A DNA stretch of 64,000 nt from Bradyrhizobium sp. NP1. Its GTDB lineage: Bacteria; Pseudomonadota; Alphaproteobacteria; Rhizobiales; Xanthobacteraceae. How positions within the stretch are numbered: position 1 is the first letter of the stretch; every line of letters starts with the position of its first letter. Positions 32,678-47,662 of the stretch are shown one piece after another. The notes under the pieces are model-generated. The model did no database searches and had not been told where the DNA came from. It was given only the letters and a program-made list of their open reading frames with translations. Made by a program: the position numbers and the translations under genes. The stretch spans positions 744,001 through 808,000 of the forward strand of contig NZ_CP127385.1 of NCBI RefSeq assembly GCF_030378205.1, read 5' to 3'.

Positions 32678-33666
32678 TCCACCTTGCGAATGCGGTCGAT
32701 CAGCCGAGCGGCAGCCGGATCACGCTGCGCCTTCTCGTAGATCGCGGCCATCGCCGCCTCGAAGGGCTTGCGGTCGAAATCCTTCACGACCGTCACGCCG
32801 AGGGCCTCGGCCTGCCGGCGCGATTGATCCTCGAGATCCTTCCATTTCTCGCGCATGAAGCGGCTGGAACGTACCGCGCTCTCGCGAAAGATCCGGCGAT
32901 CCTCGGGCGAAAGGCTCGCCCACGCCTTGTGCGACATCACCAGCACCTCCGGGCTCATCGTGTGCTCGGTGAGCGTGTAGTAGCCGGCATGCCTGTAGTG
33001 ACCGGTCGTGACGTAAGATGGCCAGTTGTTCTCGGCGCCGTCAATCAAATGGGTCGCCAGCCCGGTGGACACCTGACCATAGGGCAGCTGGACTGGCTCG
33101 GCACCGAGCGAGCGGATCATGTCGGCCATCAATTCCGATTGTTGCACACGGATTCGCAAGCCCTTGATGTCGGCGAGCGAGCGGATCGGCCGCACGCTGT
33201 CGTAAAGCGACCTTGCGCCGGAATCATAGAACGCAAGGCCGACAAAGCCATAAGGTTCGAAACTGTCCAGGATCTCGCTGCCGATCGGTCCGTCGAGAAC
33301 CCTCTGCTGATGCTCGATGGAGCGAAACAGGAACGGCATCGCCAAAACGTTGGTCGCTGGCACGAAGGTCCCGATCAGCGCCACGTTGGTGCGATTGATG
33401 TCGATCGCGCCGGCGCGGGTCTGCTCGATGGTTTCCTTCTCTTCGCCGAGCTGGTGCGAATGAAACACCCGGATCTGGTGCCGCCCGCCGGTCCGCTCCG
33501 CGATCAGGCGACCCATATAGTGCAGCGCCTGTACCGTCGGATAGTCTTCATTCTGGGTGTCGGCGGCGCGAAACTCGCGCGCAATCGCACCTGTCGCGAT
33601 GGCCGTCAAAAACAGCGCAACGGCAAGTGTAAGCGTCCGCGGAAGGTTGGCGCGGTACAAAGGCAA
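32674..33666 (-). CDS. TRAP-type (DctP family) periplasmic binding protein, TTG start, likely sensor partner
   Basis: The 330-aa protein has a signal peptide and a DctP fold: VQALHYMGRLIAERTGGRHQIRVFHSHQLGEEKETIEQTRAGAIDINRTN, then GLRIRVQQSELMADMIRSLGAEPVQLPYGQVSTGL with the conserved Arg that binds carboxylate ligands, and AENNWPSYVTTGHYRHAGYYTLTEH. The TTG at 33666 is chosen because AAGGGG lies six bases upstream and it opens the signal peptide; no ATG fits. No DctQ or DctM permease is present. Tight coupling to the kinase gene suggests it presents a ligand to the kinase. Confidence 0.9.
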   Translation of the reverse strand: MPLYRANLPRTLTLAVALFLTAIATGAIAREFRAADTQNEDYPTVQALHYMGRLIAERTGGRHQIRVFHSHQLGEEKETIEQTRAGAIDINRTNVALIGTFVPATNVLAMPFLFRSIEHQQRVLDGPIGSEILDSFEPYGFVGLAFYDSGARSLYDSVRPIRSLADIKGLRIRVQQSELMADMIRSLGAEPVQLPYGQVSTGLATHLIDGAENNWPSYVTTGHYRHAGYYTLTEHTMSPEVLVMSHKAWASLSPEDRRIFRESAVRSSRFMREKWKDLEDQSRRQAEALGVTVVKDFDRKPFEAAMAAIYEKAQRDPAAARLIDRIRKVE

Positions 33667-33872
33667 CTTGATCCCCTTCGTGATGGAGTCTATGGCGGGA
33701 GGAAAAGGTTCAAGGATTTCTGGCTTCCGCGGGAAAGGCGCTATTGTGCCGACCCCGGGGTGATCGTCAATGGCGGGAAAGCACGGCCGTTTGGGCCAGA
33801 TTGTGCGGCCGCAACAATGACAGGGCCGAAGGATGCGATCCCGCCGAGGTTGTGGCCGACGGGAATAGGCTG

Positions 33873-35201
33873 ATGGAGAGGCCGGTGTTGAGGTTTTTGC
33901 GCGTTGCCGCCGCCGCGGCACTGTTCTTTGTCGTTTCGCCGGCCTGCGCCGCGACCGACATCAATTGGTGGCATGCCATGTCGGGCCAGCTCGGCAAGCA
34001 GGTCGACAGGCTTGCCGCCGACTTCAATGCCTCGCAGTCCGAATACCGGATCGTCCCGAGCTACAAGGGCAGCTACACCGAGACCGTGACGGCAGCGATC
34101 TTCGCGTTTCGTTCGCGCAGCCAGCCCGCCATCGTCCAGGTCAACGAGATCGCCACCTCGACCATGACCGCGGCGAAAGGCGCGATCTATCCGGTCTATG
34201 AACTGATGCGCGACCAGCAGGAGGCGTTTTCGCCGCAGGCCTATCTCCCGGCCGTGACCGGCTACTACGCCGACATGGCCGGCAACCTGCTGTCGTTCCC
34301 GTTCAATGCCTCGACCCCGATCCTCTATTACAACAAGAAGCTGTTCCGCGACGCCGGGCTCGATCCGGAAACGCCGCCGAAGACCTGGCCCGAGCTTGGC
34401 GAGGCGGCCAAGCGTCTGCGCAAGGCCGGCGCGCCATGCGGTTTCACCACTTCCTGGCCTTCCTGGATCAATGTCGAGAATTTCTCCGCCTTCCACAACC
34501 TGCCGATCTCGACCCGGTCGAACGGCTTTGGCGGGCTCGATGCCGTGCTCGTATTCAACAATCCCTTCGTGGTGCGGCATATCGCGCAGCTTGCGGAATG
34601 GCAGGCGACGAAAGAGTTCGACTATAGCGGTCGTGGCCAATCGGCCGAGCCGCGCTTCCAGAACGGCGAATGCGGCATCTTCATCGGCTCGTCGGCGACG
34701 CGCGCCGACATCAAGGCCAATTCCAAGTTCGAGGTCGGCTACGGCATGCTGCCCTACTGGCCCGATATTGCGGGAGCGCCGCAAAACAGCATCATCGGCG
34801 GCGCGACGCTGTGGGTGCTGCGCGACCGCCCGCGAGAGGAATACAAAGGCGTCGCGAAATTCTTTGCCTTCCTGTCGAAGCCGGAAGTGCAGGCCGCCTG
34901 GCATCAGAACACCGGCTATCTGCCGATCACGCGCGCCGCGTTCGAGCTGACCCGCGCGCAGGGCTTCTACGACCGCAATCCCGGCACGGCGATCTCGATC
35001 GAGCAGATGACGCTGAAGCCGCCGACCGACAATTCCAGGGGCGTGCGGCTCGGCTCGTTCGTGCTGATTCGCGACGTCATCGACGACGAGCTCGAGCAGG
35101 CGTTTTCGGGCAAGAAGTCGGCGCAGGCGGCAATGGATTCCGCGGTCGAGCGGGGCAACAAGCTGCTGCGCCAGTTCGAGCGAGCGAGCCCGGAGCGTTA
35201 G
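33873..35201 (+). CDS. UgpB-like (family 1) ABC solute-binding protein, orphan
   Basis: The 442-aa protein has a signal peptide (ending ACAA) and the glycerol-3-phosphate-type binding fold: INWWHAMSGQLGKQVDRLAADFNASQSEYRIVPSYKGSYTET, then PAIVQVNEIATSTM and PFNASTPILYYNKKLFRDAGL, all close to UgpB. UgpB binds sn-glycerol-3-phosphate or its diesters. The permease and ATPase genes ugpAEC are absent. It diverges from the TRAP-type sensor operon 206 bp away, so it may be a target of that system. The ATG at 33873 opens the signal peptide. Confidence 0.88.
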   Translation: MERPVLRFLRVAAAAALFFVVSPACAATDINWWHAMSGQLGKQVDRLAADFNASQSEYRIVPSYKGSYTETVTAAIFAFRSRSQPAIVQVNEIATSTMTAAKGAIYPVYELMRDQQEAFSPQAYLPAVTGYYADMAGNLLSFPFNASTPILYYNKKLFRDAGLDPETPPKTWPELGEAAKRLRKAGAPCGFTTSWPSWINVENFSAFHNLPISTRSNGFGGLDAVLVFNNPFVVRHIAQLAEWQATKEFDYSGRGQSAEPRFQNGECGIFIGSSATRADIKANSKFEVGYGMLPYWPDIAGAPQNSIIGGATLWVLRDRPREEYKGVAKFFAFLSKPEVQAAWHQNTGYLPITRAAFELTRAQGFYDRNPGTAISIEQMTLKPPTDNSRGVRLGSFVLIRDVIDDELEQAFSGKKSAQAAMDSAVERGNKLLRQFERASPER

Positions 35202-35262
35202 CGTTCGCTTAATAAAGCGGCGTCGGAGAAAGGCTGCATCCAAAACAGGCAAATGCGCGCCT

Positions 35263-35272
35263 TTGTATGCAA
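35263..35272. promoter_or_regulatory. Candidate GntR/FCD operator upstream of the dpp-atz operon
   Basis: TTGTATGCAA differs by one base from TTGTATACAA, the palindrome used by many FCD-type GntR regulators. It lies about 90 bp upstream of the sigma-54 promoter of the operon that encodes a GntR/FCD regulator. A related TTGTGTACA lies in front of atzF at 45573-45581. Assignment is inference. Confidence 0.4.
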
Positions 35273-35358
35273 GCGCCGCATTCGCGGCGTGGCATCAGAT
35301 GTTGGCATTCATAAGATAATTCATAGCGTTACGCGACGATTAAGCTGTCGTTAAGCTC

Positions 35359-35374
35359 TGGCACGAACCTTGCG
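35359..35374 (+). promoter_or_regulatory. Sigma-54 (RpoN) promoter of the dpp-atz operon
   Basis: TGGCACGAACCTTGCG matches the -24/-12 consensus TGGCACG-N4-TTGC at every conserved position, with exactly 10 bases between the invariant GG and GC. Transcription should start near 35385, leaving a leader of about 30 bases to the ATG at 35417. Sigma-54 control implies an enhancer-binding activator such as NtrC; I do not see a clear NtrC site upstream. Confidence 0.88.
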
Positions 35375-35416
35375 AAGCCGGCTCCAAGCACGTTTTCCGT
35401 AGCGTTGGAGCAGCTG

Positions 35417-37036
35417 ATGAAGCGCCGCGACTTCCTGAAATCCGTCTCCGGGCTTGCCGCCGGCGCCATGCTGCCGGCGCCTGCGATCTGGTCGCCCGCC
35501 AAGGCCGATGCGCGGTCCGAGACGCTGCTGATCGTCTCCGAGGGCGGCCCCAACAATCTCGACATCCACGGCGTCGGCACCAACGTGCCCGGCTATGAAG
35601 TGTCGTGGAATTGCTACGACCGGCTGATCAGCCACGAGATGAAGAGCGGCCCGGGCGGCGTCCCCTATTACGACCGCGACAAGTTCAAGGGCGAGCTCGC
35701 CGACGACATGAACGTCGGTGACATGTCGGCCACCTTCAAGCTGAAGAAGAACGCCAAATTCCATGACGGCACGCCGGTCACGGCGAAGGACGTCAAATGG
35801 TCGCTCGACCGCGCTGTCTCCGTCGGCGGCTTCCCGACCTTCCAGATGAGCGCGGGCTCGCTCACCAAGCCCGAGCAGTTCGTCGTCGTCGACGACTATA
35901 CCGTGAGGGTCGACTTCCTGAAGAAGGACCGTCTCACGATTCCCGACCTCGCCGTCATCGTGCCCTGCGTGGTGAATTCCGAGCTCGTGAAGAAGAATGC
36001 GTCCGAGAAGGATCCCTGGGGCCTCGAATTCACCAAGCAGCAGACCGCGGGCTCCGGCGCCTACAGAGTGACGAAATGGACCGCCGGCACCGAAGTGGTG
36101 ATGGAGCGCAACGACGCGTGGGTCGGCGGTCCGCTGCCCAAGGTGAAGCGCGTGATCTGGCGGATGGTGCCGCAGGCCGGCAACCGCCGCGCGCTGCTCG
36201 AGCGGGGCGACGCCGACATCTCCTACGAGCTGCCGAACAAGGATTTCCAGGAGATGAAGGCGGTCGGCAAGCTCGACATCGTGTCGCTGCCGTTCTCGAA
36301 CGGCATCCAGTACATCGGCATGAACGTCACCAGGCCTCCGTTCGACAATCTGAAGGTAAGGCAGGCGATGGCCTACGCCATGCCCTACCAGAAGATCATG
36401 GACGCGGTGCTGTTCGGGCTCGCCAACCCGATGTACGGCGCCCCGGCGGAGAAGCCGACCGAGGTCGCCTGGCCGCAGCCGACCAAATATTTCACCGACA
36501 TCGAGAAGGCCAGGGCGCTGATGGCGGAAGCCGGCTACGCCAACGGCTTCGAGACCACGCTGTCCTTCGACCTCAACTTCGCGCAGGTCAACGAGCCGCT
36601 CTGCGTGCTGGTGCAGGAAAGTCTCGCCCAGCTCGGCATCAAGACCACGATCAACAAGGTGCCGGGATCGAACTGGCGCACCGAGCTCAACAAGAAGGAG
36701 ATGCCGCTCTTCACCAACGTGTTCTCGGGCTGGCTCGATTATCCCGAATACTTCTTCTACTGGTGCTATCACGGCAACAATTCCGTCTTCAACACCATGA
36801 GCTACAAGTCGGCCGAGATGGATCGGCTGATCGACGGCGCGCGCAACGCTGCGGCGATCGGCGACAAGGCGGCCTACGAGTCCGACGTCAAGGGCTTCGC
36901 CGATCTCGCCTTCGCCGACATCCCGCGCATCCCGCTCTACCAGCCCTTCGTCAACGTCGCGATGCAGAAGAACGTCTCGGGCTATCAATACTGGTTCCAT
37001 CGACGGCTCGACTACCGCGCGCTGGTGAAGGGGTGA
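35417..37036 (+). CDS. Dpp-type ABC transporter substrate-binding protein
   Basis: The 539-aa protein has a Tat signal (KRRDFLKSVSGLAAGAMLPAPA) and a family 5 peptide/opine/nickel-binding fold, with KLKKNAKFHDGTPVTAKDVKWSLDRAV, the hallmark segment, and GIQYIGMNVTRPPFDNLKVRQAMAYAM. It heads the importer-hydrolase operon behind a sigma-54 promoter. Given the downstream AtzGEH enzymes, the ligand is probably a ureide or amide such as a biuret derivative rather than a peptide. The ATG at 35417 has GGAG upstream; a TTG at 35405 was rejected. Confidence 0.92.
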   Translation: MKRRDFLKSVSGLAAGAMLPAPAIWSPAKADARSETLLIVSEGGPNNLDIHGVGTNVPGYEVSWNCYDRLISHEMKSGPGGVPYYDRDKFKGELADDMNVGDMSATFKLKKNAKFHDGTPVTAKDVKWSLDRAVSVGGFPTFQMSAGSLTKPEQFVVVDDYTVRVDFLKKDRLTIPDLAVIVPCVVNSELVKKNASEKDPWGLEFTKQQTAGSGAYRVTKWTAGTEVVMERNDAWVGGPLPKVKRVIWRMVPQAGNRRALLERGDADISYELPNKDFQEMKAVGKLDIVSLPFSNGIQYIGMNVTRPPFDNLKVRQAMAYAMPYQKIMDAVLFGLANPMYGAPAEKPTEVAWPQPTKYFTDIEKARALMAEAGYANGFETTLSFDLNFAQVNEPLCVLVQESLAQLGIKTTINKVPGSNWRTELNKKEMPLFTNVFSGWLDYPEYFFYWCYHGNNSVFNTMSYKSAEMDRLIDGARNAAAIGDKAAYESDVKGFADLAFADIPRIPLYQPFVNVAMQKNVSGYQYWFHRRLDYRALVKG

Positions 37037-37059
37037 AACATAGCGGGGGCTAGCGCGTC

Positions 37060-38073
37060 ATGCTGACCATGATCGGCAAGCGGCTGATGTTCGCGATCCC
37101 GAGCCTGATCGGCGTCGTGGTCGTGACCTTCCTGCTGACCCGCGCGCTGCCCGGCGATCCCGCCGCCTATTTCGCCGGTCCCGCCGCGACGAAAGAGGCG
37201 ATCGAGCAGATCAGGAAGAAGCTCGGCTTCGACAAGCCGCTGATCGAGCAGTTCTTCCGCTACACCAATGATCTCGCCCATGGCGATCTCGGGACATCGC
37301 TGACCACAGGCCAGCCGGTGTCGACCGAGATCCGCAACCGCCTGCCGGCCTCGGCCGAGCTGACACTGCTCGGGCTCCTGGTATCGATCGCGATCGCGCT
37401 GCCGCTCGGCGTGCTCGCCGCCACGCGCCCCGGCTCGCTGATCGACCATCTGTGCCGCATCACCACCACCGCCGGCGTCTCGCTGCCGGTGTTCTTTACC
37501 GGGCTCGTGCTGGTCTACGTGTTCTATTTCCGGCTCGGCTGGGCGCCGGCGCCGCTCGGCCGGCTCGACGTGTTCTACAGCGCGCCGCCGACCGTGACCG
37601 GCTTCTACCTGATCGACACGCTGATCGCGCGCGATTTCGAGGCGTTCCGTTCGGCGCTGAGCCAGCTCCTATTGCCCGCCGCGACGCTTGCGATCTTCTC
37701 GCTGGCGCCGATCGCGCGCATGACGCGCGCCTCGATGCTTTCGGTGCTCGCCTCCGACTTCGTGCGCACCGCGCGCGCCAGCGGGCTGTCGCCCGGCACC
37801 GTCGTCGTCACCTACGCTTTCCGCAACGCCATGCTGCCGGTCATCACCACGCTCTCGATGGTGTTCTCCTTCCTGCTCGGCGCCAATGTGCTGGTGGAGA
37901 AGGTCTTTGCCTGGCCCGGCATCGGCTCCTACGCGGTGGAAGCGCTGATCGCCTCGGACTTCGCGCCGGTGCAAGGTTTCGTGCTGACCATGGCGGTCAT
38001 GTATGTGCTGCTCAATCTCGCGATCGACATCCTCTATGGCGTGATCGATCCGCGCGTGCGGCTGGAGGGATAG
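37060..38073 (+). CDS. ABC transporter permease (DppB-like)
   Basis: The 337-aa membrane protein has six helices and the DppB N-terminal pattern MIGKRLMFAIPSLIGVVVVTFLLTRALPGDPAAYFAG. The cytoplasmic EAA loop ASDFVRTARASGLSPGTVVVTYAFRNAMLPVIT contacts the ATPase. It follows the binding protein by 23 bp and precedes the DppC-like permease by 3 bp. Confidence 0.94.
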   Translation: MLTMIGKRLMFAIPSLIGVVVVTFLLTRALPGDPAAYFAGPAATKEAIEQIRKKLGFDKPLIEQFFRYTNDLAHGDLGTSLTTGQPVSTEIRNRLPASAELTLLGLLVSIAIALPLGVLAATRPGSLIDHLCRITTTAGVSLPVFFTGLVLVYVFYFRLGWAPAPLGRLDVFYSAPPTVTGFYLIDTLIARDFEAFRSALSQLLLPAATLAIFSLAPIARMTRASMLSVLASDFVRTARASGLSPGTVVVTYAFRNAMLPVITTLSMVFSFLLGANVLVEKVFAWPGIGSYAVEALIASDFAPVQGFVLTMAVMYVLLNLAIDILYGVIDPRVRLEG

Positions 38074-38076
38074 GCC

Positions 38077-38976
38077 ATGAGCAGCGTCGCCCCGACGATC
38101 GAGCCTGCCGCACCCGCGCGCAGCACCGGGCTTGCCGCCACGCTCGAGCATGCGCGCTACGTGCTCGGCGAGAACCGCGTTACGGCCTTCGCCTTCGTCC
38201 TCCTGATCATCATTCTGCTGGCCGCAATCCTCGGACCCTATGTCGTACCTTACGATCCGCTGGCCTCCGACACGGCGCGGGCGCTGAGACCGCCGTCGTC
38301 GGCGCACTGGTTCGGCACCGACCAGCTGGGCCGCGACATCTTCAGCCGCGTCATCGTCGCGACGAGGCTCGATGCCTTCATTGCGGTCGCTTCGGTCGCG
38401 CTCGTCTTCCTGATGGGTGGGCTGGCCGGCGTCGCCGCCGGCTATTTCGGCGGCTGGACCGATCGGATCGTCGGCCGCATCGCCGACACCATCATGGCGT
38501 TTCCGCTGTTCGTGCTGGCGATGGGCATCGTGGCGGCGCTCGGCAACACCGTGCAGAACATCATCCTGGCGACCGCGATCGTGAACTTCCCGCTCTATGC
38601 GCGCGTGGCCCGTGCCGAGGCCAATGTCCGCCGCAATGCCGGCTTCGTGCAGGCCGCGCGCCTCTCCGGCAATGGCGAGTTCCGCATCCTGCTCGGCCAC
38701 ATCCTGCCCAACATCATGCCGATCATGATCGTGCAGATGTCGCTGACGATGGGCTACGCCATCCTCAACGCCGCCGGCCTGTCCTTCATCGGGCTCGGCG
38801 TGCGGCCGCCGACCGCTGAATGGGGCATCATGGTCGCCGAAGGCGCGGGCTTCATGGTGTCGGGCGAATGGTGGATCGCACTGTTTCCGGGGCTTGCGCT
38901 GATGATCGCGGTGTTCTGCTTCAATCTGCTCGGCGACGGCCTGCGCGACATCGTCGATCCGCAGCGGAGGACCTGA
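38077..38976 (+). CDS. ABC transporter permease (DppC-like)
   Basis: The 299-aa permease has a cytoplasmic N-tail, about six helices, the DppC-typical LRPPSSAHWFGTDQLGRDIFSRVIVATRLD segment and the EAA loop RNAGFVQAARLSGNGEFRILLGHILPN. It pairs with the DppB-like subunit. The next gene begins 3 bp downstream, showing a tightly packed operon. Confidence 0.94.
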   Translation: MSSVAPTIEPAAPARSTGLAATLEHARYVLGENRVTAFAFVLLIIILLAAILGPYVVPYDPLASDTARALRPPSSAHWFGTDQLGRDIFSRVIVATRLDAFIAVASVALVFLMGGLAGVAAGYFGGWTDRIVGRIADTIMAFPLFVLAMGIVAALGNTVQNIILATAIVNFPLYARVARAEANVRRNAGFVQAARLSGNGEFRILLGHILPNIMPIMIVQMSLTMGYAILNAAGLSFIGLGVRPPTAEWGIMVAEGAGFMVSGEWWIALFPGLALMIAVFCFNLLGDGLRDIVDPQRRT

Positions 38977-38979
38977 GCG

Positions 38980-40776
38980 ATGGTTGCGCGGCCTTTGCTC
39001 GACGTGCGCGACCTTACGGTCGAATTCTCCACCCGGCGCGGCATCGTCAAAGCGGTGCAGCATGTCGATATCACGGTGGCCAAGGGCGAGACGCTTGGCA
39101 TCGTCGGCGAATCCGGCTCCGGCAAGTCGGTCACCTCCTACGCGGTGATGCGGATCCTCGACCGCGCCGGAAGGATCGCCGAAGGCTCGGTGATGTTCTC
39201 CGGGATCGACGTGCGCGCGGCCGGCGAGGACGAGATGCGTGACCTGCGCGGCCGCGAGATCTCGATGATCTTCCAGAACCCGCGCGCCGCGCTCAATCCG
39301 ATCCGCAAAGTGGGCGCCCAGATCGAGGATGTGCTGCGCCAGCACGTGCAGGCAGCGGCCCAGGACCGCGGCGAGAAGGCGATCGAGGCGCTGGAGCAGG
39401 TGCGGATCGCCCGGCCGCGCGAGCGCTACCATGCCTATCCGTTCGAGCTGTCGGGCGGCATGTGTCAGCGCGTGGTGATCGCGCTGGCGCTCGCCTGCAA
39501 TCCGCAGCTTCTGATCGCGGACGAGCCGACCACCGGTCTCGACGTCACCACGCAGAAGGCGGTGATGGACCTGGTGGTCGAGCTGACGCGCCGGCGCAGC
39601 ATGTCGACAATCCTGATCACGCATGACCTCGGACTTGCGGCGGCCTATTGCGATCGCGTCGTGGTGATGGAGAAGGGCCGCGTGGTCGAGACCGCGAAAT
39701 CGGCCGATATCTTTGCCAATCCGCAGCACCCTTACACGCGCAAGCTGATGCGCGCGACGCCGCGGATCGGCGTTTCCCTGCGCGATCTGCTGCCGGAGGA
39801 TGAAGCCGCTGCTCAGTCCGTCATGGCCGGGCTTGACGCGGCCATCCATCACTCTTCGAAAGATTCCTCTGAGACGATGGACCCCCGGGTCAAGCCCGGG
39901 GGTGACGAGAATACCAAGCCGCTGCTGCTGGTCGACAAGCTGGTGAAGGAATATCCGCGCCAGGGCGCGACCGCGACGCTGACGAAACTGTTCGGGCGCA
40001 AGCCGCCGATCGAGCCGGAAGCCTTCCGTGCCGTCGACGGCATCAGCTTCACCGTCGGCCACGGCGAGAGCGTGGGCCTGGTCGGCGAGTCCGGCTGCGG
40101 CAAGTCGACGACCTCGATGATGGTGATGCGGCTGCTCGACCAGACTTCGGGCCGCATCCTGTTCGACGGCCACGAGATCGGCGCCATCATGCCGCATGCC
40201 TTCGCGCGGCTTGCCCTGCGCAGCCAGATCCAGATGGTGTTCCAGGATCCGACCGACAGCCTCAATCCGCGCTTCACGGCGGCGCGGGCGATTGCCGATC
40301 CGCTGATCCAGCTTGGCGACGTCAAGGGACGCGACCGCTTGCGCGCGCGCTGCGAGGAGCTGGCCGACCTGGTCGGCCTGCCGCTCAATCTGCTCGATCG
40401 CTTTCCGCATCAATTGTCCGGCGGCCAGAAGGCGCGCGTCGGGATCGCGCGCGCCATTGCGCTCCATCCGAAGCTCGTGATCCTGGACGAGCCGACCGCG
40501 GCGCTCGATGTCTCGGTGCAGGCAGTGGTGCTGAACCTGCTGCAGCAGCTCAAGCACTCGCTCGGCATGAGCTACCTTTTCGTCTCGCACGATCTCAACG
40601 TCGTGCGGCTGCTATGCGATCGTGTCATAGTGATGCGTGCGGGGCGCATCGTCGAGCAGGGAACGGCGGAGGAGGTGCTTGGCAATCCCCGGGAAGCCTA
40701 TACAAAAGAGCTGCTGACGGCGATTCCGCATCCGCCGCTGCCGACCAGCGAACAACAATCGATGGGCGCGACATGA
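38980..40776 (+). CDS. Fused DppD-DppF-type ABC ATPase with repeat-derived linker
   Basis: The 598-aa protein contains two complete ABC domains. Domain 1 has Walker A GESGSGKS (43-50), signature LSGGMCQRV and Walker B LLIADEP; domain 2 has Walker A GESGCGKS, signature LSGGQKARV and Walker B LVILDEP. Each domain ends in the oligopeptide-type extension (NPQHPYTRKLM and NPREAYTKELL). The linker at about residues 280-310 is encoded by a palindromic repeat that is otherwise intergenic (see 39818-39909). It energises the Dpp-type importer. Confidence 0.94.
   Translation: MVARPLLDVRDLTVEFSTRRGIVKAVQHVDITVAKGETLGIVGESGSGKSVTSYAVMRILDRAGRIAEGSVMFSGIDVRAAGEDEMRDLRGREISMIFQNPRAALNPIRKVGAQIEDVLRQHVQAAAQDRGEKAIEALEQVRIARPRERYHAYPFELSGGMCQRVVIALALACNPQLLIADEPTTGLDVTTQKAVMDLVVELTRRRSMSTILITHDLGLAAAYCDRVVVMEKGRVVETAKSADIFANPQHPYTRKLMRATPRIGVSLRDLLPEDEAAAQSVMAGLDAAIHHSSKDSSETMDPRVKPGGDENTKPLLLVDKLVKEYPRQGATATLTKLFGRKPPIEPEAFRAVDGISFTVGHGESVGLVGESGCGKSTTSMMVMRLLDQTSGRILFDGHEIGAIMPHAFARLALRSQIQMVFQDPTDSLNPRFTAARAIADPLIQLGDVKGRDRLRARCEELADLVGLPLNLLDRFPHQLSGGQKARVGIARAIALHPKLVILDEPTAALDVSVQAVVLNLLQQLKHSLGMSYLFVSHDLNVVRLLCDRVIVMRAGRIVEQGTAEEVLGNPREAYTKELLTAIPHPPLPTSEQQSMGAT
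39818..39909. repeat. Palindromic repeat inserted in frame in the ABC ATPase gene
   Basis: GTCATGGCCGGGCTTGACGC at the left end and the inverted CGGGTCAAGCCCGGGGGTGAC at the right end form imperfect terminal inverted repeats of about 31 bases. The left arm matches an intergenic copy starting at 47667 (GTCATGGCCGAGCTTGTGCC). Here the element is read in frame, adding about 30 residues (VMAGLDAAIHHSSKD, then MDPRVKPGGDEN) between the two ABC domains. Confidence 0.85.
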
Positions 40777-40784
40777 CGGCCAGG

Positions 40785-40853
40785 ACCGCCGATTTGAAGT
40801 CCGCCACACGGGCTTCCACGTATCAAGGAGGCGGACTTCAAATCGAAAGCGGT
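40785..40853. promoter_or_regulatory. Strong inverted repeat between the ABC ATPase gene and atzG
   Basis: CGATTTGAAGTCCGCC (40790-40805) and GGCGGACTTCAAATCG (40830-40845) are perfect 16-bp inverted repeats around 24 bases. The stem extends by five more pairs (ACCGC 40785-40789 with GCGGT 40849-40853) across an AAA bulge. It starts 8 bp after the ATPase stop codon. No U-run follows, so it is more likely an mRNA-processing or stabilising hairpin, or an operator, than a terminator. Confidence 0.8.
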
Positions 40854-40915
40854 ACTGGAATCATGAGATTGCCGGTACCCTTTGCTTTCCGGAGTTCGCA
40901 AAGGAGGATGCCGCA

Positions 40916-41119
40916 GTGACAAACGAAGTTCGGAAAGCGGGTAGCGATCCGCTGGATGACTATATCGAGGCCGCGGCGAAAGCCCTCGGGCTCACGATCG
41001 AGGAGGCGTGGCGACCGGCGGTGCGGACGAGCCTCGAGGTGTCGCTGAGGCAGGCGCGGCTGGTCGACGAGTTCCCGCTGCCAGACGAAGCCGAGCCGGC
41101 CAGTGTCTTCACCGCGTGA
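40916..41119 (+). CDS. atzG: AtzG-like small subunit of amidase (DUF4089)
   Basis: The 67-aa protein (DPLDDYIEAAAKALGLTIEE, then VRTSLEVSLRQARLVDEFPLPDEAEPASVF) matches the AtzG/DUF4089 family, which forms a stable heterotetramer with AtzE and is needed for its activity. The start is a GTG with AGGAGG seven bases upstream. It is followed by the AtzE-like gene after four bases. The length and gene pairing match atzG-atzE of cyanuric acid degraders. Confidence 0.85.
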   Translation: MTNEVRKAGSDPLDDYIEAAAKALGLTIEEAWRPAVRTSLEVSLRQARLVDEFPLPDEAEPASVFTA

Positions 41120-41123
41120 CGCC

Positions 41124-42521
41124 ATGGCATCCGGGTTCGACCGGCTGACCGCCGCGGAAATCGCAACCGCCGTGGCCGGCCATCGAATGTCGGCCGAGGC
41201 CGTCACCGAGGCGGCGCTGGCGCGGATCGCGCGGTACAATCCGGTCCTCAACGCCTTCACCGACGTCACCGCGGATCGTGCGCGGGCCAGGGCCCGCGCC
41301 GTCGATGCCGCGATTGCCGAAGGCAAGCAGCCGGGTGCGCTCGCCGGCGTTCCCTTCGCGGTGAAGAACCTGTTCGACGTGAAGGGGCTCTCGACCCGCG
41401 CCGGCTCGAAGATCAACCGTGACCGGCGGCCGTCCGCGCGCGATGCGACGCTGATCGAGCGCCTGGAAGCGGCTGGCGCCGTGCTGGTCGGCGCGCTCAA
41501 CATGGGCGAATACGCCTACGACTTCACCGGCGAGAACGCCCATGACGGCCCCTCGCGCAATCCGCACGACACGACGCGGGTCAGCGGCGGCTCGTCCGGC
41601 GGCTCCGGCAGCGCGGTCGGCGGACGCCTCGTGCCGATCGCGCTCGGCTCCGATACCAACGGTTCGATCCGCGTGCCGTCCTCGTTCTGCGGCATTTTCG
41701 GCCTGAAGCCGACCTATGGCCGGCTGTCGCGCGCCCGCTCGTTCCCATTCGTGATGAGTCTCGATCATCTCGGCCCGTTCGCGCGTTCGGTCGCCGACCT
41801 CGCGATCGCCTATGACGCGATGCAGGGGCCGGACGCGGCCGATGCCGCCTGCACGACGCGCCCGGTCGAGGCGGTCACGCCGCAGCTTGCGCGGGGCGTC
41901 GAGGGCTTGCGCATCGCGGTTGCCGGCGGCTATTTCCAGAAAAACCTCGTCCCGGAGGCAATCGAGGCCGTCGCGCTCGTCGCCAGGGCACTCGGCGCGA
42001 CGCAGACCGTCGAAATCCCGGAAGCCGCGCGCGCCCGGGCCGCTGCCTTTGTCATCACGACCACGGAAGGAGCCTCGCTGCATCTCGACCGCTTGCGCAA
42101 CCGGCCGCATGATTTCGATCCCGCGGTGCGCGATCGCCTGCTCTCGGGCGCGATGATCCCGGCGCCGCTGGTCGATCGCGCGCAGAAATTCCGCCGCTGG
42201 TATCGCGCGCGCGTGCTGGAGCTGTTCAAGAGCGTCGACGTGATCCTGGCGCCGGCGACGCCCTGCTCCGCGCCGAAAATCGGACAGGCGACCTTTACGC
42301 TCGACGGCGTCGAGATGCCCGTGCGCCCCAATATCGGCCTGCACACCCAGCCGATCTCCTTCATCGGCCTGCCCGTCGTCGCGGTGCCGGTGCCGCTCGA
42401 GCCGATGCCGATCGGCGTGCAGATCATCGCTGCACCCTGGCGCGAGGACATCGCCTTGCGCGTGGCGTGCGCACTGGAACAGATGGACGTGGTGTCGGCG
42501 CCGCCGCCGCGGGGGATTTGA
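41124..42521 (+). CDS. atzE: AtzE-like amidase (1-carboxybiuret hydrolase type)
   Basis: The 465-aa amidase-signature enzyme has the Ser-cisSer-Lys triad: K81 ([12 protein letters not shown]), cis-Ser S157 (GGSSGGS) and nucleophile S181 (GSDTNGSIR), with the expected 24-residue spacing between the two serines. AtzE with AtzG deaminates 1-carboxybiuret. The adjoining AtzG-like and AtzH-like genes support this family rather than GatA or a general amidase. The exact substrate is inferred from gene context. The ATG at 41124 is preferred to the GTG at 41103, which overlaps atzG. Confidence 0.87.
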
Positions 42522-42523
42522 CC

Positions 42524-42922
42524 ATGGAAATCGACCTTCCCGACGTCGTGGCGGAGGTGACGGCACAGTTCCAGCGCTACGAGCAGGCGCTGGTGACCAA
42601 CGACGTCGCCGTGCTCGACGAGTTGTTCCGCAATGATCCGCGTACGCTGCGCTATGGCATCGGCGAGAACCTCTACGGCTACGGCGCGATATCGTCGTTC
42701 CGCGCCGCGCGCTCGCCGGTCGGGCTGATGCGCAGGACCGCGCGCACCGTGATCACGACCTATGGGCGTGACGTCGCGGTGGCCTCCACGCTGTTCTATC
42801 GCGACAGCGCGCCGGGCAAGGTCGGCCGGCAGATGCAGACCTGGGCCAGGTTTCCCGAAGGCTGGCGCATCGTCGCCGCCCATGTCAGCGTCATCGACGA
42901 GCACAAGGACCCGAAGGCATGA
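42524..42922 (+). CDS. AtzH/HpxZ-like protein (DUF3225, NTF2 fold)
   Basis: The 132-aa protein ([56 protein letters not shown], then [11 protein letters not shown]) belongs to the DUF3225 family. This family includes HpxZ of oxalurate catabolism and AtzH, described as acting between AtzEG and AtzF on 1,3-dicarboxyurea. Here it follows atzE by two bases, so an AtzH-like step to allophanate is inferred. Its last codons overlap the GntR gene (ATGA at 42919-42922). Confidence 0.85.
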
Positions 42923-43647
42923 GCCTCGACGACCTCCCGGCCGAGGCGGCGACGGGCATTGCCGGAGAGACAGTGCGCCGTGTCGATCGTGCGCCGCCCT
43001 CCTTGCAGAAGGTCACGCGCGCGGAGGAACTGCGATTGCAGCTCGCGGACGAGATCGTGCGCGGCACCCTGCCGCCCGGCGCGCCGCTCGACGAGACCGA
43101 GATCGCGCGGCGCTTCAGCGTGTCGCGCACGCCGGTACGCGAGGCGCTGCGCCAGCTCGCGGCAAGCGGCCTGGTGGAGGCGCGGGCGCATCGCGGCGCC
43201 GTGGTGGCGCGGCCCACGCTCGAACGGCTGACCGAAATGTTCGAGGCGATGGCGGAGCTGGAGGCGCTGTGCGCGGGGCTTGCCGCGGAGCGCATGTCAC
43301 CGATCGAACGGCGGCGGCTCGAGGCGGTTCACGAGGAATTGCGCATGCTGAGCCATGCCGGCAATCCCGAGCGCTTTCACGAGGTCAACGAGCGCTTCCA
43401 CAGCGCGATCTATGCCGGCGCGCGTAACGGCTATATCGCGGAAATGACGCTGGCGACCCGGGTGCGGGTGCAGCCGTTCCGCCGCGCCCAGTTCCGCAAC
43501 CTTGGCCGGCTCGCCAAGTCCCATGCCGAACATGACCGCGTCGTGGTCGCGATCCTGCGCGGCGACCGCCTCGGCGCGGCCGGCGCGATGCGCGCGCATA
43601 TCGAATTCGTCCGCGGCGAATACGAGATCTACGCGGTATCGGTCTAA
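42919..43647 (+). CDS. GntR/FCD transcriptional regulator of the ureide operon
   Basis: The 242-aa protein has a GntR winged helix ([63 protein letters not shown], about residues 37-97) and an FCD effector domain with the metal/ligand pattern [13 protein letters not shown] and a later H-E motif. It is the last gene of the dpp-atz operon and probably controls both this operon and the convergent atzF in response to a pathway intermediate. Confidence 0.9.
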
Positions 43648-43697
43648 CGCGCACCACATTCCGAGACGCGCAAAAATGCGCTCCTCACCATGAGGCG

Positions 43698-45491
43698 CTA
43701 TTCCGCCGCCTGTGCCATGAAGGCACGCCAGCCGCCAAAGGCCGATATGTCGCGCGCGCCTTCGAGCGCGGCGGGCTCGGCGAGAAAGCCCTTCACGCTG
43801 TGGCCGTCGGCGAGCCTGATGGTGCCGATCGAAAGCGGCGGCGGGATCGCGGCGACGAAGCGGCCGAATGCGTCGGCCGACAGCGACCACACTTCCAGCG
43901 CGATCGCCGCGCCACGGCCGGCCTCGATGCGCACCATGCCGGGCTTCGGCGGTGTCGTCGACAGCGCGAAGAGCCGGTAGTCCGGCGCGGTCGCGGTCTC
44001 CTCCAGCAATCTTGCGCCGAGCGCGCGCAATTCGCCGTTGAGCGCCATGCCGGAAAGATGCGCGCCGACCACGGCGATCGGGATTTCGTTCGCCTCGGCG
44101 CTCTCGCTTACATCCGCAAGCGGCGGCTGCGGCTGGCCCGTGGCGCCGAGCGCAAGCCCGCTGCCGGCGTGGAAGACGCGGCCGATGCTCGCAAGCATGG
44201 CGTCGCGTCCGCCCGGCGCCAGCAGCGTGATGCCGAAGGGGATGCCGTCGGAGCGCATTGCTGACGGCAGCGCGAGGCCGCAGAGGTCGAGCAGGTTGAC
44301 GAAGTTGGTGTAGGTGCCGAGCCGGCTGTTGAGCTCGATCGGGTTGGCGAGCACCTGCGCGGTCGAATAGACGGTGGGCGCGGTCGGCAGCACCATCGCA
44401 TCGATCTCGGCGAAGGTGCGCGCGGCGACCTGGCGCAGCGCCTGTAGCCGGTAGAGCGCGGCAAAGGTATCGGCGGCGCTGATCCGGCTGCCGGCAACCG
44501 TGATCTCGCGCGTCACCGGGTGGATCGCTTCGGGAGCGGAGGCGAGCAGATCGCGGATTACGAGGTAGCGCTCGGCGACCCAGGGCCCCTCGTAGAGCAG
44601 CCGCGCGGTCTCGTAGAAGGGCTCGAGATCGAAGGCGACGAGTTCGGCGCCGAGCGACCTCAAGCGCTCGATCGCCTCGCCATAGGCTGCCTCCGACTTC
44701 GTGTCGCCGAAGAAGAGCAACTGGCCGTTGCGGGGAATGCCGAGCCTGGGCTTGTTCGGCAGCGCCGTGAGATAGCCAAGCGGCCGGTCGCGCGAAAACG
44801 GATCGGCGGCATCGGGCGCCGCCATCGCCTCCAGCGCGAGCATCGCGTCGTCGACCGTGAGCGAGAAGAGCGAGACGCAGTCGAGTGTGCGGCAGGCCGG
44901 CACCACGCCCGTGGTGGAGACCAGCCCGAGGCTCGGCTTCAGCCCGACGATATTGTTGAGCATCGCCGGCACGCGGCCCGAGCCGGCGGTGTCGGTGCCG
45001 AGCGACAGCGGCACCAGCCCTGCGGCAACCGCGACGGCCGAGCCCGAACTCGATCCGCCCGGAATGAGATCGGCGCGAACAGGGTTTTTCGGAATGCCGT
45101 AGGGCGAGCGCACGCCGACGAGCCCGGTCGCGAACTGGTCGAGATTGGTCTTGCCGATGATGATGGCGCCCGCCGCGCGCAGCCGCGCCACCGCGGTCGC
45201 ATCGCGCGCGGGCCGGTAGGAGAAGGCGGGGCAGGCCGCGGTGGTTGGCAGGCCCGCGACGTCGATATTGTCCTTCACCGCGACCGGCACGCCGAACAGC
45301 GGCAGCGATGCCGCCTTTGTGCCGGAGAGCGCCTCGGCTTCGGCGAGCACTTCCTTCTCGTCGCGCAAGGCGATGAAGATGGCGGGATCGCCATGCGCTA
45401 GGATGCGCCGATAGCTGCGCGCCATCGTCTCGGCCGGCGAGGTGGCCCCTGCACGATGGGCGGCGACGATCGCGGCGACGGTTTCGGTCAA
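43698..45491 (-). CDS. atzF: Allophanate hydrolase (AtzF)
   Basis: The 597-aa enzyme hydrolyses allophanate to ammonia and CO2. The amidase domain has K73 (GVPVAVKDNIDV), cis-Ser S147 (GGSSSGS) and nucleophile S171 (GTDTAGSGR), with the allophanate-hydrolase-type GGSSSGSAVAVAAGLVP. A C-terminal domain of about 130 residues (PIAVVGAHLSGMALNGEL to the end) is the AtzF-specific second domain. The length matches AtzF of about 600 aa. It is convergent with the GntR gene, 50 bp apart, and has its own promoter region. Confidence 0.93.
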   Translation of the reverse strand: MTETVAAIVAAHRAGATSPAETMARSYRRILAHGDPAIFIALRDEKEVLAEAEALSGTKAASLPLFGVPVAVKDNIDVAGLPTTAACPAFSYRPARDATAVARLRAAGAIIIGKTNLDQFATGLVGVRSPYGIPKNPVRADLIPGGSSSGSAVAVAAGLVPLSLGTDTAGSGRVPAMLNNIVGLKPSLGLVSTTGVVPACRTLDCVSLFSLTVDDAMLALEAMAAPDAADPFSRDRPLGYLTALPNKPRLGIPRNGQLLFFGDTKSEAAYGEAIERLRSLGAELVAFDLEPFYETARLLYEGPWVAERYLVIRDLLASAPEAIHPVTREITVAGSRISAADTFAALYRLQALRQVAARTFAEIDAMVLPTAPTVYSTAQVLANPIELNSRLGTYTNFVNLLDLCGLALPSAMRSDGIPFGITLLAPGGRDAMLASIGRVFHAGSGLALGATGQPQPPLADVSESAEANEIPIAVVGAHLSGMALNGELRALGARLLEETATAPDYRLFALSTTPPKPGMVRIEAGRGAAIALEVWSLSADAFGRFVAAIPPPLSIGTIRLADGHSVKGFLAEPAALEGARDISAFGGWRAFMAQAAE

Positions 45492-45799
45492 GGCGTGCCT
45501 CTTGGCTGGCCGGAGGGTTCAACGGGCCTCGGGCGACAAATTCTAGCCCGTTTCGCTGCAAGCGATGTGCCATTGTGTACAGGATCGATGCTGGCCGGAA
45601 CGCCGATCAAGCCAAATAATATCAATGGCTTGGCTCAGCACTGACGAGCCGTGCGGAGATTTCCGGCCGCGCGCTGCCAACTTTTTGAGCAGCACCGGCA
45701 AGAGCGTCGCAGGCGCGCGACAGGCGTTGCCGCGCTGCGCGGTTCTCGCGTAGAGAGCAAAAGGCCCTTCAACGAAAGCGGCCTTCGCGAGGAAACCCC
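45492..45799. other. 308-bp divergent region between atzF and the CoA ligase gene
   Basis: No gene is visible. TTGTGTACA (45573-45581), about 80 bp upstream of atzF, resembles a GntR/FCD operator. CAAGCCA (45608-45614) and TGGCTTG (45626-45632) form a perfect inverted repeat around an AT-rich 11-base spacer and could bind a regulator of either gene. The GAGGAAA at about 45790 is the ribosome binding site of the ligase gene. Confidence 0.55.
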
Positions 45800-47662
45800 A
45801 TGACCCCTGTCGCCGCGGCCCACGACGATTCCGCCGTGCTGTTCGCCAAGCCCGATATATCGGCCGAGCATCGTCCTGACGGCAGCACCGTCGTCCGATC
45901 CCGGACGCCGCTGCGCGCCCACGCGCGCTGCGCCGGCGACTGGCTGGAGCATTGGGCGCGGCGCACGCCGGACAAGGTCTTTCTCGCCGAGCGCGCAAGT
46001 GTCGATGCGCCCTGGACGACGGTTTCCTATGCGGATGCGATGCGCCGGGTGCGGTCGCTCGGTGCCTGGATGCTCGCGCAGGGCCTGAGCGCCGATCATC
46101 CGCTCGCGATCCTTTCCGACAACAGCATCGATCACGCGCTGCTGACGCTTGCCGCGATGCATGTCGGCGTGCCGGCTGCCGCGATCTCGCCGGCCTATTC
46201 GCTGATGTCCAAAGATTTCGACAAGCTGAAGAGCATGATCCGCCTGCTCGAGCCCGGCGCGATCTATGTGTCGAGCGTGACGTCATTTGCAGCGGCGCTC
46301 GCCGCGATCGCACCGCTGCATGCGGCGAAGCTCGTCAGCGGCGATGCGCAGGACGCCGAGGCGATTTCGTTCGCGGCGATTGCGGCAACGTCGGAGACGC
46401 CTGAGGTCGAAACAGCCTTCGCACGCGTGACGCCGGACACGATCGCAAAATTCCTGTTCACCTCGGGTTCGACCGGCACGCCGAAGGCTGTGATCAACAC
46501 GCAGCGCATGCTGACCTCGAGCCAGGAGGCCAAGGCACAGACCTGGGCCTTCCTCGAAAACGCGGGCGACGCGCTCGTGATCCTCGACTGGCTGCCCTGG
46601 AGCCACACGTTTGGCGCCAACCACAATTTCAATCTGGTGCTGCGCAACGGCGGCACGCTCTACATCGACGGCGGCAAGCCGGCGCCGGGGCTGTTCGCGA
46701 CCTCGCTCGCCAATCTCCGCAGCATCCGCCCGACGATCTATTTCAACGTGCCGCGCGGCTTCGACATGCTGATCGCAGCGTTGCGCGAGGACGAGGACCT
46801 TCGCCGCAAATTCTTCACCGAGGTGAGGCTTGCGTTCTATGCCGGCGCGGCGCTGCCGCAGAACCTCTGGGACGCGCTCAACGAGCTCTCGCACAAGACC
46901 ATCGGCCGCGCGCTGCCGATGGTCTCGGCCTGGGGTTCGACTGAAACCTCGCCGCTCGCGACCGACTGCCACTTCCAGGCCGAACGCTCGGGCAATATCG
47001 GCGTGCCCATCCCCGGCACCGAGCTGAAGCTCGTGCGCGCCGGCGACAAGCTCGAGGTGCGCGTGCGCGGCCCCAACATCACGCCCGGCTACTGGAAGGC
47101 GGCCGAGCTCACGGCGCAGGCCTTCGACGAGGAAGGATTTTACCGGATCGGCGATGCCGTGAAGTTTGCCGATCCGGCGCGGCCGGAACTTGGCTTGTTC
47201 TTCGACGGCCGCGTCGCGGAGGATTTCAAGCTCAGTTCGGGAACCTGGGTCAATGTCGGCAGCCTTCGCGTCGCCGGCATCGCCGCGCTCGCGCCGCTGG
47301 CGCAGGACATCGTGGTCGCCGGCCATGGCGGCGATGCCGTGCATTTCCTGATCTTTCCGAACCTGGCGGCCTGCCGCGCGCATGCAGGTCTTGCCGAGCA
47401 GGCGGATGTTCGCGCGGTGATCGCGCATCCAAAAGTGCGCGACGCGATCGCGCAGGGGCTCGCGGGTCTGAAGGCGCGGGCTCCGCATTCGTCCGCTCAC
47501 GCCACGCGCGCGCTGCTGCTTGCCGAGCCTCCGTCGGTCGATGGCGGCGAGATCACGGACAAGGGCTACATCAACCAGCGCGCGGTGCTGACGCGCCGTT
47601 CCGAGGCGGTGGCGCGGCTCTGTGATGACGCGTCAAGCGAATGGATCGGCTGCGCCAGCTGA
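45800..47662 (+). CDS. Feruloyl-CoA synthase-like acyl-CoA ligase
   Basis: The 620-aa adenylate-forming enzyme has the AMP-binding motif FLFTSGSTGTPKAVINTQRML (about 215-235, with the P-loop-like TSGSTGTPK), the VSAWGSTETSPLATDC core (A5) and FYRIGDAVKFADPARPELGLFFDGR (A8). The last motif and overall length fit feruloyl-CoA synthases, which activate hydroxycinnamates. The C-terminal domain is shortened, as in that family. No hydratase/aldolase or vanillin dehydrogenase gene is adjacent, so the substrate is not certain. Confidence 0.85.
   Translation: MTPVAAAHDDSAVLFAKPDISAEHRPDGSTVVRSRTPLRAHARCAGDWLEHWARRTPDKVFLAERASVDAPWTTVSYADAMRRVRSLGAWMLAQGLSADHPLAILSDNSIDHALLTLAAMHVGVPAAAISPAYSLMSKDFDKLKSMIRLLEPGAIYVSSVTSFAAALAAIAPLHAAKLVSGDAQDAEAISFAAIAATSETPEVETAFARVTPDTIAKFLFTSGSTGTPKAVINTQRMLTSSQEAKAQTWAFLENAGDALVILDWLPWSHTFGANHNFNLVLRNGGTLYIDGGKPAPGLFATSLANLRSIRPTIYFNVPRGFDMLIAALREDEDLRRKFFTEVRLAFYAGAALPQNLWDALNELSHKTIGRALPMVSAWGSTETSPLATDCHFQAERSGNIGVPIPGTELKLVRAGDKLEVRVRGPNITPGYWKAAELTAQAFDEEGFYRIGDAVKFADPARPELGLFFDGRVAEDFKLSSGTWVNVGSLRVAGIAALAPLAQDIVVAGHGGDAVHFLIFPNLAACRAHAGLAEQADVRAVIAHPKVRDAIAQGLAGLKARAPHSSAHATRALLLAEPPSVDGGEITDKGYINQRAVLTRRSEAVARLCDDASSEWIGCAS

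Follow-up and report, generated by a model that had tools for sequence, protein, structure and literature searches.

A sigma-54- and GntR-associated importer and atzGEH-atzF locus of Bradyrhizobium sp. NP1 and its proposed role in polyureide nitrogen scavenging

The atzDGEHF operon for cyanuric acid in Pseudomonas sp. ADP, on plasmid pADP-1, brings AtzG, AtzE, AtzH and AtzF together. Clusters of atzG, atzE and atzH with allophanate hydrolase and ATP-binding cassette (ABC) transporter genes were described by Esquirol 2018 (PMC6219798); the accessible part of that report leaves open the role of such clusters outside cyanuric acid degraders and proposes no substrate or regulon for them, and its main text, to the same extent, mentions neither triuret nor Bradyrhizobium. 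The triuret pathway consists of TrtA, TrtB, BiuH and AtzF, and the accessible portions of the reports on it mention AtzEG as an existing carboxybiuret amidase (PMC7948467, PMC12625717). Described here is a related locus at positions 35359-45491 of a 64,000-nucleotide stretch (the window) of the genome of Bradyrhizobium sp. NP1, which is complete, a single contig of 7.7 Mb. Genes for a solute-binding protein (SBP) of the SBP5 type, two permeases and a fused ATPase are followed by atzG, atzE, an atzH/hpxZ gene and a GntR family gene, and atzF lies convergent to them. This gene list, with its order, strands and families, had been given by a sequence-only reading, and it was borne out by open reading frames (ORFs), Pfam and NCBIfam: all genes are present and open, and the AtzG, AtzE, AtzH and AtzF families are all represented.

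With a probability of roughly 0.68, the operon encodes the lower part of a pathway for scavenging nitrogen from triuret/carboxybiuret (polyureides), combined with a Dpp-type importer and placed under sigma-54 and its own GntR protein. The SBP5 importer would bring in a linear polyureide, and in most relatives TrtA would make carboxybiuret from triuret. AtzEG would deaminate carboxybiuret to 1,3-dicarboxyurea, AtzH would decarboxylate this to allophanate, and AtzF would turn allophanate into ammonia and carbon dioxide, as judged from homologues of these four enzymes. The importer-atzGEH-gntR operon and atzF would be transcribed from sigma-54 promoters, with the operon's GntR probably repressing both until polyureide is present; the candidate GntR site abuts the -24 element at atzF and trtA.

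Promoter elements common to atzF and trtA

Conservation was followed in two samples: a named-locus set, the best 80 of 286 AtzH relatives (78 Bradyrhizobium, one Bradyrhizobiaceae bacterium, L050, and one Frankia sp. RB7, L064), and 31 genomes of the genus, the window's own (G000) among them. A bare scan for the sigma-54 pattern is uninformative, because the 104 matches that it gives in the window with 2 or fewer mismatches are at chance level, and conservation decides instead. The SBP-side box is present in 65 of the 65 named loci having at least 150 nt upstream (64 strict, one a TGGCAT variant). The atzF-side box is found in 77 of 78 (75 strict), the exception being L029, where the box instead precedes trtA, in a row that also includes atzF. 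The background is 154 of 20,138 segments of 150 nt, true sites included. Conservation of both boxes at a fixed place within the genus is thus well supported. The single sigma-54 promoter of the sequence-only reading, at 35359, is among these, and a second, perfect box before atzF has to be added to it, as do candidate GntR operators at both promoters.

FCD-type GntR proteins bind TTGYAYRCAA-like sites. When 75 upstream sequences are aligned, TTTGTATGCAA and its flanks form a block of conservation ahead of the SBP box, and alignment of 87 sequences has TGTACACAATGGCAC conserved at atzF; both resemble TTGYAYRCAA palindromes, and the TTGYAYRCAA/TGTACACAATGG sites are candidate GntR binding sites. 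TTTGTATGCAA is operon-linked in 24 of the 31 genus genomes, with no operon-linked copy in G752, G756, G757, G759, G761 and G763 and no operon in G772.

The composite TGTACACAATGGCRY-N5-TTGC is confined to two genes in the sampled genus. A whole-genome search of the 31 genomes with TGTACACAATGGCRYNNNNNTTGC returned 52 exact sites. In 23 genomes a site is found no more than 200 bp from trtA (23 sites), the atzF side of the operon accounts for the other 29 (28 genomes), and there are none elsewhere. Five further sites were found at 2 mismatches, and a reversed-pattern control gave 2 at up to 2 mismatches. An element found in this sample only at atzF and trtA ties a large group of atzGEH clusters to triuret breakdown. 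In the trtA upstream regions first examined, a sigma-54-like box was present in nine of nine under a looser pattern, with TGTACACA directly before it in six.

The enzyme at the far end of this link was recognised from structures. Isochorismatase-family hydrolases adjoin AtzH relatives in several families, and the one in L165 has the triuret hydrolase 6xix/6xj4 as its best PDB match. Both entries are triuret hydrolases, and Ala in TrtA, as opposed to Ser in BiuH, distinguishes the two enzymes in the accessible part of the source (PMC7948467). The Bradyrhizobium TrtA of L190 carries the TrtA-type Ala and scores 288 bits to TrtA versus 235 to BiuH. TrtA, at 68-71% identity to that of L165, is encoded in 28 of the 31 genus genomes (none in G000, G749 and G772) and in 14 of the 15 named genomes tested, the exception being the draft of STM 3809. 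In the Bradyrhizobium loci L190 and L029, the second from a metagenome-assembled genome, trtA, a permease gene and atzF follow one another, and the only element is the one before trtA, atzF having none of its own. L165, from another family of the same order, has SBP-permB-permC-ABC-AtzH-GntR, AtzF and TrtA-permease-AtzG-AtzE together; its importer operon is without atzGE, which come after TrtA-permease, across atzF, with AtzG identified by Pfam (8e-14).

The trtA-linked permease, of about 550 amino acids, is found in 21 of the 31 genus genomes and adjoins trtA in all 21. It has no NCBIfam match, and the L190 protein has no Pfam match even at E 10. The permease is a candidate for transport of triuret or a related compound.

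TTGYAYRCAA sites number 53 in 2.25 Mb (123 loci), 43 of them near pathway gene starts, against 6 for the reversed pattern (21 versus 0 in same-genus loci, 32 versus 6 in other loci), counts that are flattering because the motif was shaped partly on the same loci (L086, L090, L092, L165 and the trtA regions). A site was taken as near a start if at most 400 bp upstream of SBP, AtzF, AtzH, AtzE, GntR or Bmp, or at most 900 bp from the midpoint of TrtA/BiuH. Eight of the ten sites away from pathway starts are in HpxW-type loci. Each of the six Bradyrhizobium Bmp/BiuH loci with the upstream region available also has the motif, at 204-223 nt before Bmp, and the BiuH of the one such operon tested is a true BiuH, with 423 bits to 6azo and 427 bits in NCBIfam (cut-off 370). 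Candidate control elements appear to be common to TrtA and probably to BiuH too. The Bmp-type ABC transporter/BiuH operons with the candidate operator (L175, L176, L177, L180, L182 and L191) adjoin a peptidase-M20 gene, which in L180 scores as allantoate amidohydrolase.

As a mark of the regulon on its own, TTTGTATGCAA was rejected, with 22 off-operon sites versus 16 for reversed-pattern controls in the 31 genomes. Single unlinked sites are not evidence, because the off-operon rate is near that of the control, and this includes the second site in the window's own genome (L210:9477, genome position 5754976). That site, at about the background rate and perhaps due to chance, falls between genes that diverge from each other and precedes a molybdenum hydroxylase carrying a cytochrome c domain, with an AA_synth gene and a Peripla_BP_6 transporter in its surroundings. 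In G758 (L212:8051-13400) the 11-mer precedes a gene that we read as like a major facilitator superfamily transporter, and the genes nearby also include a GntR gene (40% identical to the window's), an Asp/Glu/hydantoin racemase gene and amidohydrolase-family genes.

Genes of the locus and their conservation

Features of the locus and of the trtA-linked permease, in window coordinates unless a locus is named
Feature	Position	Strand	Basis or remark
Candidate GntR operator TTTGTATGCAA	35262..35272	+	conserved block; begins 97 nt upstream of -24 box
Sigma-54 -24/-12 box TGGCACGAACCTTGCG, importer/enzyme operon	35359..35374	+	one mismatch from TGGCAC-N6-TGCW
SBP_bac_5 solute-binding protein	35417..37036 (first ATG 35417; ORF 35405-37036)	+	PF00496, 2.5e-80
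ABC permease, DppB type	37060..38073	+	family profiles
ABC permease, DppC type	38077..38976	+	family profiles
Fused ABC ATPase, DppD-DppF type	38980..40776	+	two ABC_tran domains
atzG-like small subunit, GTG start	40916..41119	+	PF13318, 4.6e-18
atzE, 1-carboxybiuret hydrolase-type amidase	41124..42521 (start chosen; ORF open from 41103)	+	TIGR02715, 738 bits, cut-off 426
atzH/hpxZ-like	42524..42922	+	NF033625, 204 bits, cut-off 135
GntR family regulator, FCD subfamily	42919..43647	+	4-nt overlap with atzH stop
atzF, allophanate hydrolase with C-terminal domain, TTG start	43698..45491	-	TIGR02713 plus AH_C
Perfect sigma-54 box TGGCACATCGCTTGCA of atzF	45557..45572	-	pattern and conservation
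Composite element TGTACACAATGGCACATCGCTTGC	45558..45581	-	palindrome TGTACA abutting -24 box; common to trtA promoters
trtA-adjoining permease-like protein	L190:9947-11605		
trtA-adjoining permease-like protein	L029:12169-14073 (true start inside)	-	

AtzE scores 501 bits against the solved AtzE 6c62, AtzH matches structure 6bjt, and AtzF matches full-length allophanate hydrolases across both domains. In the AtzH alignment, Tyr and Arg occupy the columns assigned by manual count to Tyr22 and Arg46 of AtzH, which the accessible part of the source gives as required for catalysis (PMC6219798). The importer has the Dpp-type composition of SBP5, two permeases and two ATPase domains. In E. coli DppA we take the peptide-contact residues to be Arg355 and Asp408; the column for Arg355 holds Glu in the window and in all 12 relatives aligned, a nearby loop is shorter, and the Asp408 region is ambiguous. 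The N-terminus of the SBP, MKRRDFLK, looks to us like a twin-arginine translocation signal. An Rfam scan of 33000-47000 returned no match at gathering thresholds.

The genes had been described as all packed. The genes atzH and gntR overlap, and packing is incomplete between the importer half and the enzyme half, because the ATPase gene and atzG are 139 nt apart. Within this gap lies an inverted repeat (40790-40845) whose 16-bp arms match perfectly around a 24-nt loop, and it could separate importer from enzyme expression. Another palindromic repeat (39819-39907, 32-nt arms, 78% complementary) lies within the linker of the fused ATPase, where it reads ...MDPRVKPGGDE...; it is also present in L010 and L003, and the linkers of L004, L012 and L018 have a different insert-like sequence.

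The search for conserved synteny suggested with the original reading found all nine genes, by thresholded matches, in 64 of the 80 best-matching named loci. The remaining 16 include 12 loci shorter than 16.1 kb and ended by contig ends, and L067 and L078, each one gene short at the threshold. Among the 31 genus genomes, 30 have AtzH and 30 have AtzE of at least 70% identity, and the window's AtzH is up to 91% identical to those of named Bradyrhizobium loci. The ratio of nonsynonymous to synonymous substitution rates (dN/dS) is 0.08-0.31 for SBP, AtzE, AtzH, GntR and AtzF against three or four relatives, and therefore the operon does not look like decay; AtzH, at 0.08-0.18 against four relatives, is under purifying selection. 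The record titled Frankia sp. RB7 (L064) has the complete operon, with identity in the Bradyrhizobium range (83% for AtzH), and is probably a misnamed or mixed assembly. The window's AtzH matches STM 3809 and BTAi1 well, which we take to be photosynthetic strains, and membership of the photosynthetic clade was considered and was not borne out, the AtzE tree placing the window outside it.

Substrate, entry enzyme and competing explanations

Neighbourhoods outside the genus were counted in 84 loci, that is, the 93 over-cut-off AtzH matches other than that of G000, minus nine from the same genus. Thresholded tblastn was preferred for these counts because ORF-based neighbourhoods include fused or wrong-frame ORFs. 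AtzF was found in 18 loci, TrtA in 16, BiuH in 11, a window-type SBP in 8 and an HpxW-like protein in 17, the last meaning the gamma-glutamyltransferase family, which NCBIfam does not separate from Ggt. TrtA occurs with AtzE or AtzF in 15 of its 16 loci; with AtzE taken by itself the association does not reach significance (p = 0.16, kinship ignored). In 33 of the 84 loci none of AtzE, AtzF, TrtA and an HpxW-like gene is present. On the AtzE tree (65 rows, outgroup included), the window falls into a group of 16 rows from its genus and family (support 100/100), inside a largely alphaproteobacterial clade of 42 rows (99/99). Neighbours of the AtzF and TrtA families are frequent in that clade, with 11 rows labelled TrtA and 3 labelled HpxW.

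Several results weigh against a triuret/carboxybiuret pathway under common control. The exact composite element is absent from 5 of the 28 trtA genes (G361, G746, G747, G753 and G755), and G749 has the operon with neither the element nor TrtA. Outside the genus, a strict SBP-side box is present in four of eight loci (L086, L090, L092, whose SBP is 55% identical, and L166) and in none of L110, L165, L167 and L170; the strict atzF box is found in 0 of the 17 loci listed, with CGGTAT-type variants in L086, L090 and L092. On the AtzE tree the TrtA and HpxW labels need three changes each, and the clade with Klebsiella HpxY joins (99/96) the AtzE of Pseudomonas sp. ADP (L203) and the TrtA-labelled L144 and L170; therefore, linkage to TrtA also occurs beyond the window's side of the tree. 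The window's AtzE is 53% identical to that of Pseudomonas sp. ADP and 50% to Klebsiella HpxY. Nitrogen control, with nitrogen limitation as its signal and an activator, is what we infer, as are the importer ligand and the binding and role of GntR; sigma-54 alone does not imply nitrogen control, the operon has no activator gene, and no activator site was recognised by eye in the footprints, no systematic scan having been made.

It is quite unlikely that the locus is an Hpx-type oxalurate (purine) operon, in which the importer would take up oxalurate, AtzGE would convert it to N-carboxyoxamate and AtzH would convert that to oxamate. NCBIfam does call the AtzH gene HpxZ, an "oxalurate catabolism protein", hpxX-atzE-hpxZ are adjacent in Klebsiella, and in Acidithiobacillus atzG-atzE-hpxZ occur with xanthine dehydrogenase genes and a gamma-glutamyltransferase. 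Moreover, an HpxW-like gene stands beside the importer-AtzGE-AtzF operon in L086 and L090, a further point against the polyureide pathway, and these two loci may connect the use of oxalurate with that of polyureides. In NCBIfam no HpxW model matches the HpxW-like proteins encoded in L090 and L138, which hit only gamma-glutamyltransferase, below cut-off; in L086 and L090 a TauE-type exporter also joins the system. The window locus itself has no HpxW-like gene (the rest of the genome was not searched for HpxW), TrtA and an HpxW-like gene occur together in 0 of the 84 loci, and the 12 HpxW-labelled rows that include Klebsiella HpxY form a 100/100 clade of their own with the window outside. AtzF, with a sigma-54 box too, is part of the same locus, and we know of no role for it in oxalurate breakdown. 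Because TrtA shares control elements, an HpxW-like gene is absent from the locus and HpxY falls in a separate clade, the biuret/carboxybiuret/triuret family appears favoured as substrate and oxalurate less likely. The import and hydrolysis of a ureide, as first proposed, finds support in gene families, conserved synteny and promoter elements, and its oxalurate candidate loses ground.

Two other explanations keep ureides as substrates. The importer may be a peptide importer that merely sits upstream of enzymes acting alone on ureides, which is unlikely. Most of the solved relatives of its SBP carry names of peptide, YliB-type, opine or heme binders, and an inverted repeat lies between the operon halves. 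Two full-length named loci (L011 and L071) keep atzGEH-gntR-atzF with all four importer genes absent, and TrtA is encoded in both genomes, which also counts against an importer integral to the pathway. Against a bystander importer, outside the genus AtzF accompanies seven of the eight window-type SBPs (Fisher p = 5e-5, kinship ignored), and within the genus the SBP has its constant sigma-54 box and a shared candidate operator. Direct use of biuret, with the importer taking up biuret and AtzEG hydrolysing it straight to allophanate, is the least probable of the alternatives. It would account for an operon that persists without TrtA, BiuH or AtzD and for the candidate operator at the Bmp/BiuH operon of relatives. 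It is made less likely because Pseudomonas sp. ADP, which has AtzEG, cannot degrade biuret, according to the accessible part of the source (PMC6219798), and it would leave AtzH, which is under purifying selection, without a substrate.

What weighs most directly on the polyureide pathway in the window strain is the entry step. In its own complete genome neither TrtA (best match 33% identity, E 3e-20, on which a TrtA elsewhere in the genome was rejected) nor BiuH was detected, and PF09663, the AtzD family, had 0 matches, while 17 of the 31 genus genomes have one. Therefore, the known carboxybiuret makers searched for are absent and the entry step is missing. Complete breakdown, as originally claimed, fits AtzEG-AtzH-AtzF and lacks a detected first enzyme here; either that enzyme was lost recently or another substrate is used. 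A bolder proposal, which we consider doubtful, is that the operon works here without a known carboxybiuret-making enzyme. The SBP5 importer and AtzEG-AtzH-AtzF would then import and completely mineralise an environmental ureide new as a bacterial nitrogen source, for example an N-carboxylated or acyl-urea uric acid oxidation product around plants, and one GntR/sigma-54 circuit would govern the use of this ureide, triuret and biuret across Bradyrhizobium. If the polyureide pathway is correct, it would allow Bradyrhizobium, living near uric-acid-making plants, to use what arises from uric acid oxidation; the regulator, the importer and the unclassified permease become directly testable.

Comparison with described systems

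The sequence-only reading knew of no described system with this exact combination; in general terms the combination has precedents in the clusters of Esquirol 2018, similar in the accessible part of that report (PMC6219798), and in a near-identical set on a Roseomonas plasmid. In the Esquirol clusters, to the same extent, atzF lies upstream on the same strand, whereas in the window it is convergent. The Roseomonas mucosa plasmid p1-AD2 (NZ_CP025188, L205) has GntR, atzF, SBP, two permeases, an ATPase, DUF4089 and AtzE in a single run, with family-level annotation only; unlike in the window, atzF shares the strand of the other genes and its annotation is split in two, and no atzH was found in the stretch examined. 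On pADP-1 the transporter genes nearby are of the BMP type and a LysR gene stands beside atzD, whereas the window has a Dpp-type importer, a GntR gene inside the operon and a convergent atzF with its own sigma-54 box, and its genome encodes no AtzD-family protein. In Klebsiella HpxXYZ, HpxX takes the position of AtzG, and HpxY and HpxZ belong to the AtzE and AtzH families, respectively; the system differs in its separate AtzE clade, in an HpxW-like gene scored there and in having no AtzF in the stretch examined.

The triuret pathway likewise ends with AtzF, and in most Bradyrhizobium relatives its trtA gene has the same promoter element as atzF. In that pathway carboxybiuret is decarboxylated to biuret, whereas the route predicted for the window is deamination by AtzEG followed by AtzH, in a strain without detectable TrtA. 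No report linking TrtA and AtzEG to the importer described here, or to its GntR/sigma-54 control, was found in the literature searched, most subscription journals being outside the search, and the accessible parts of work on operon expression in Bradyrhizobium mention allophanate hydrolase with no tie to the window locus. So far as the accessible parts of these sources go, clusters that combine atzGEH with AtzF and ABC transporters have been published before, and what is new is the element common to atzF and trtA, the TrtA link and the predicted TrtA-AtzEG-AtzH-AtzF route.

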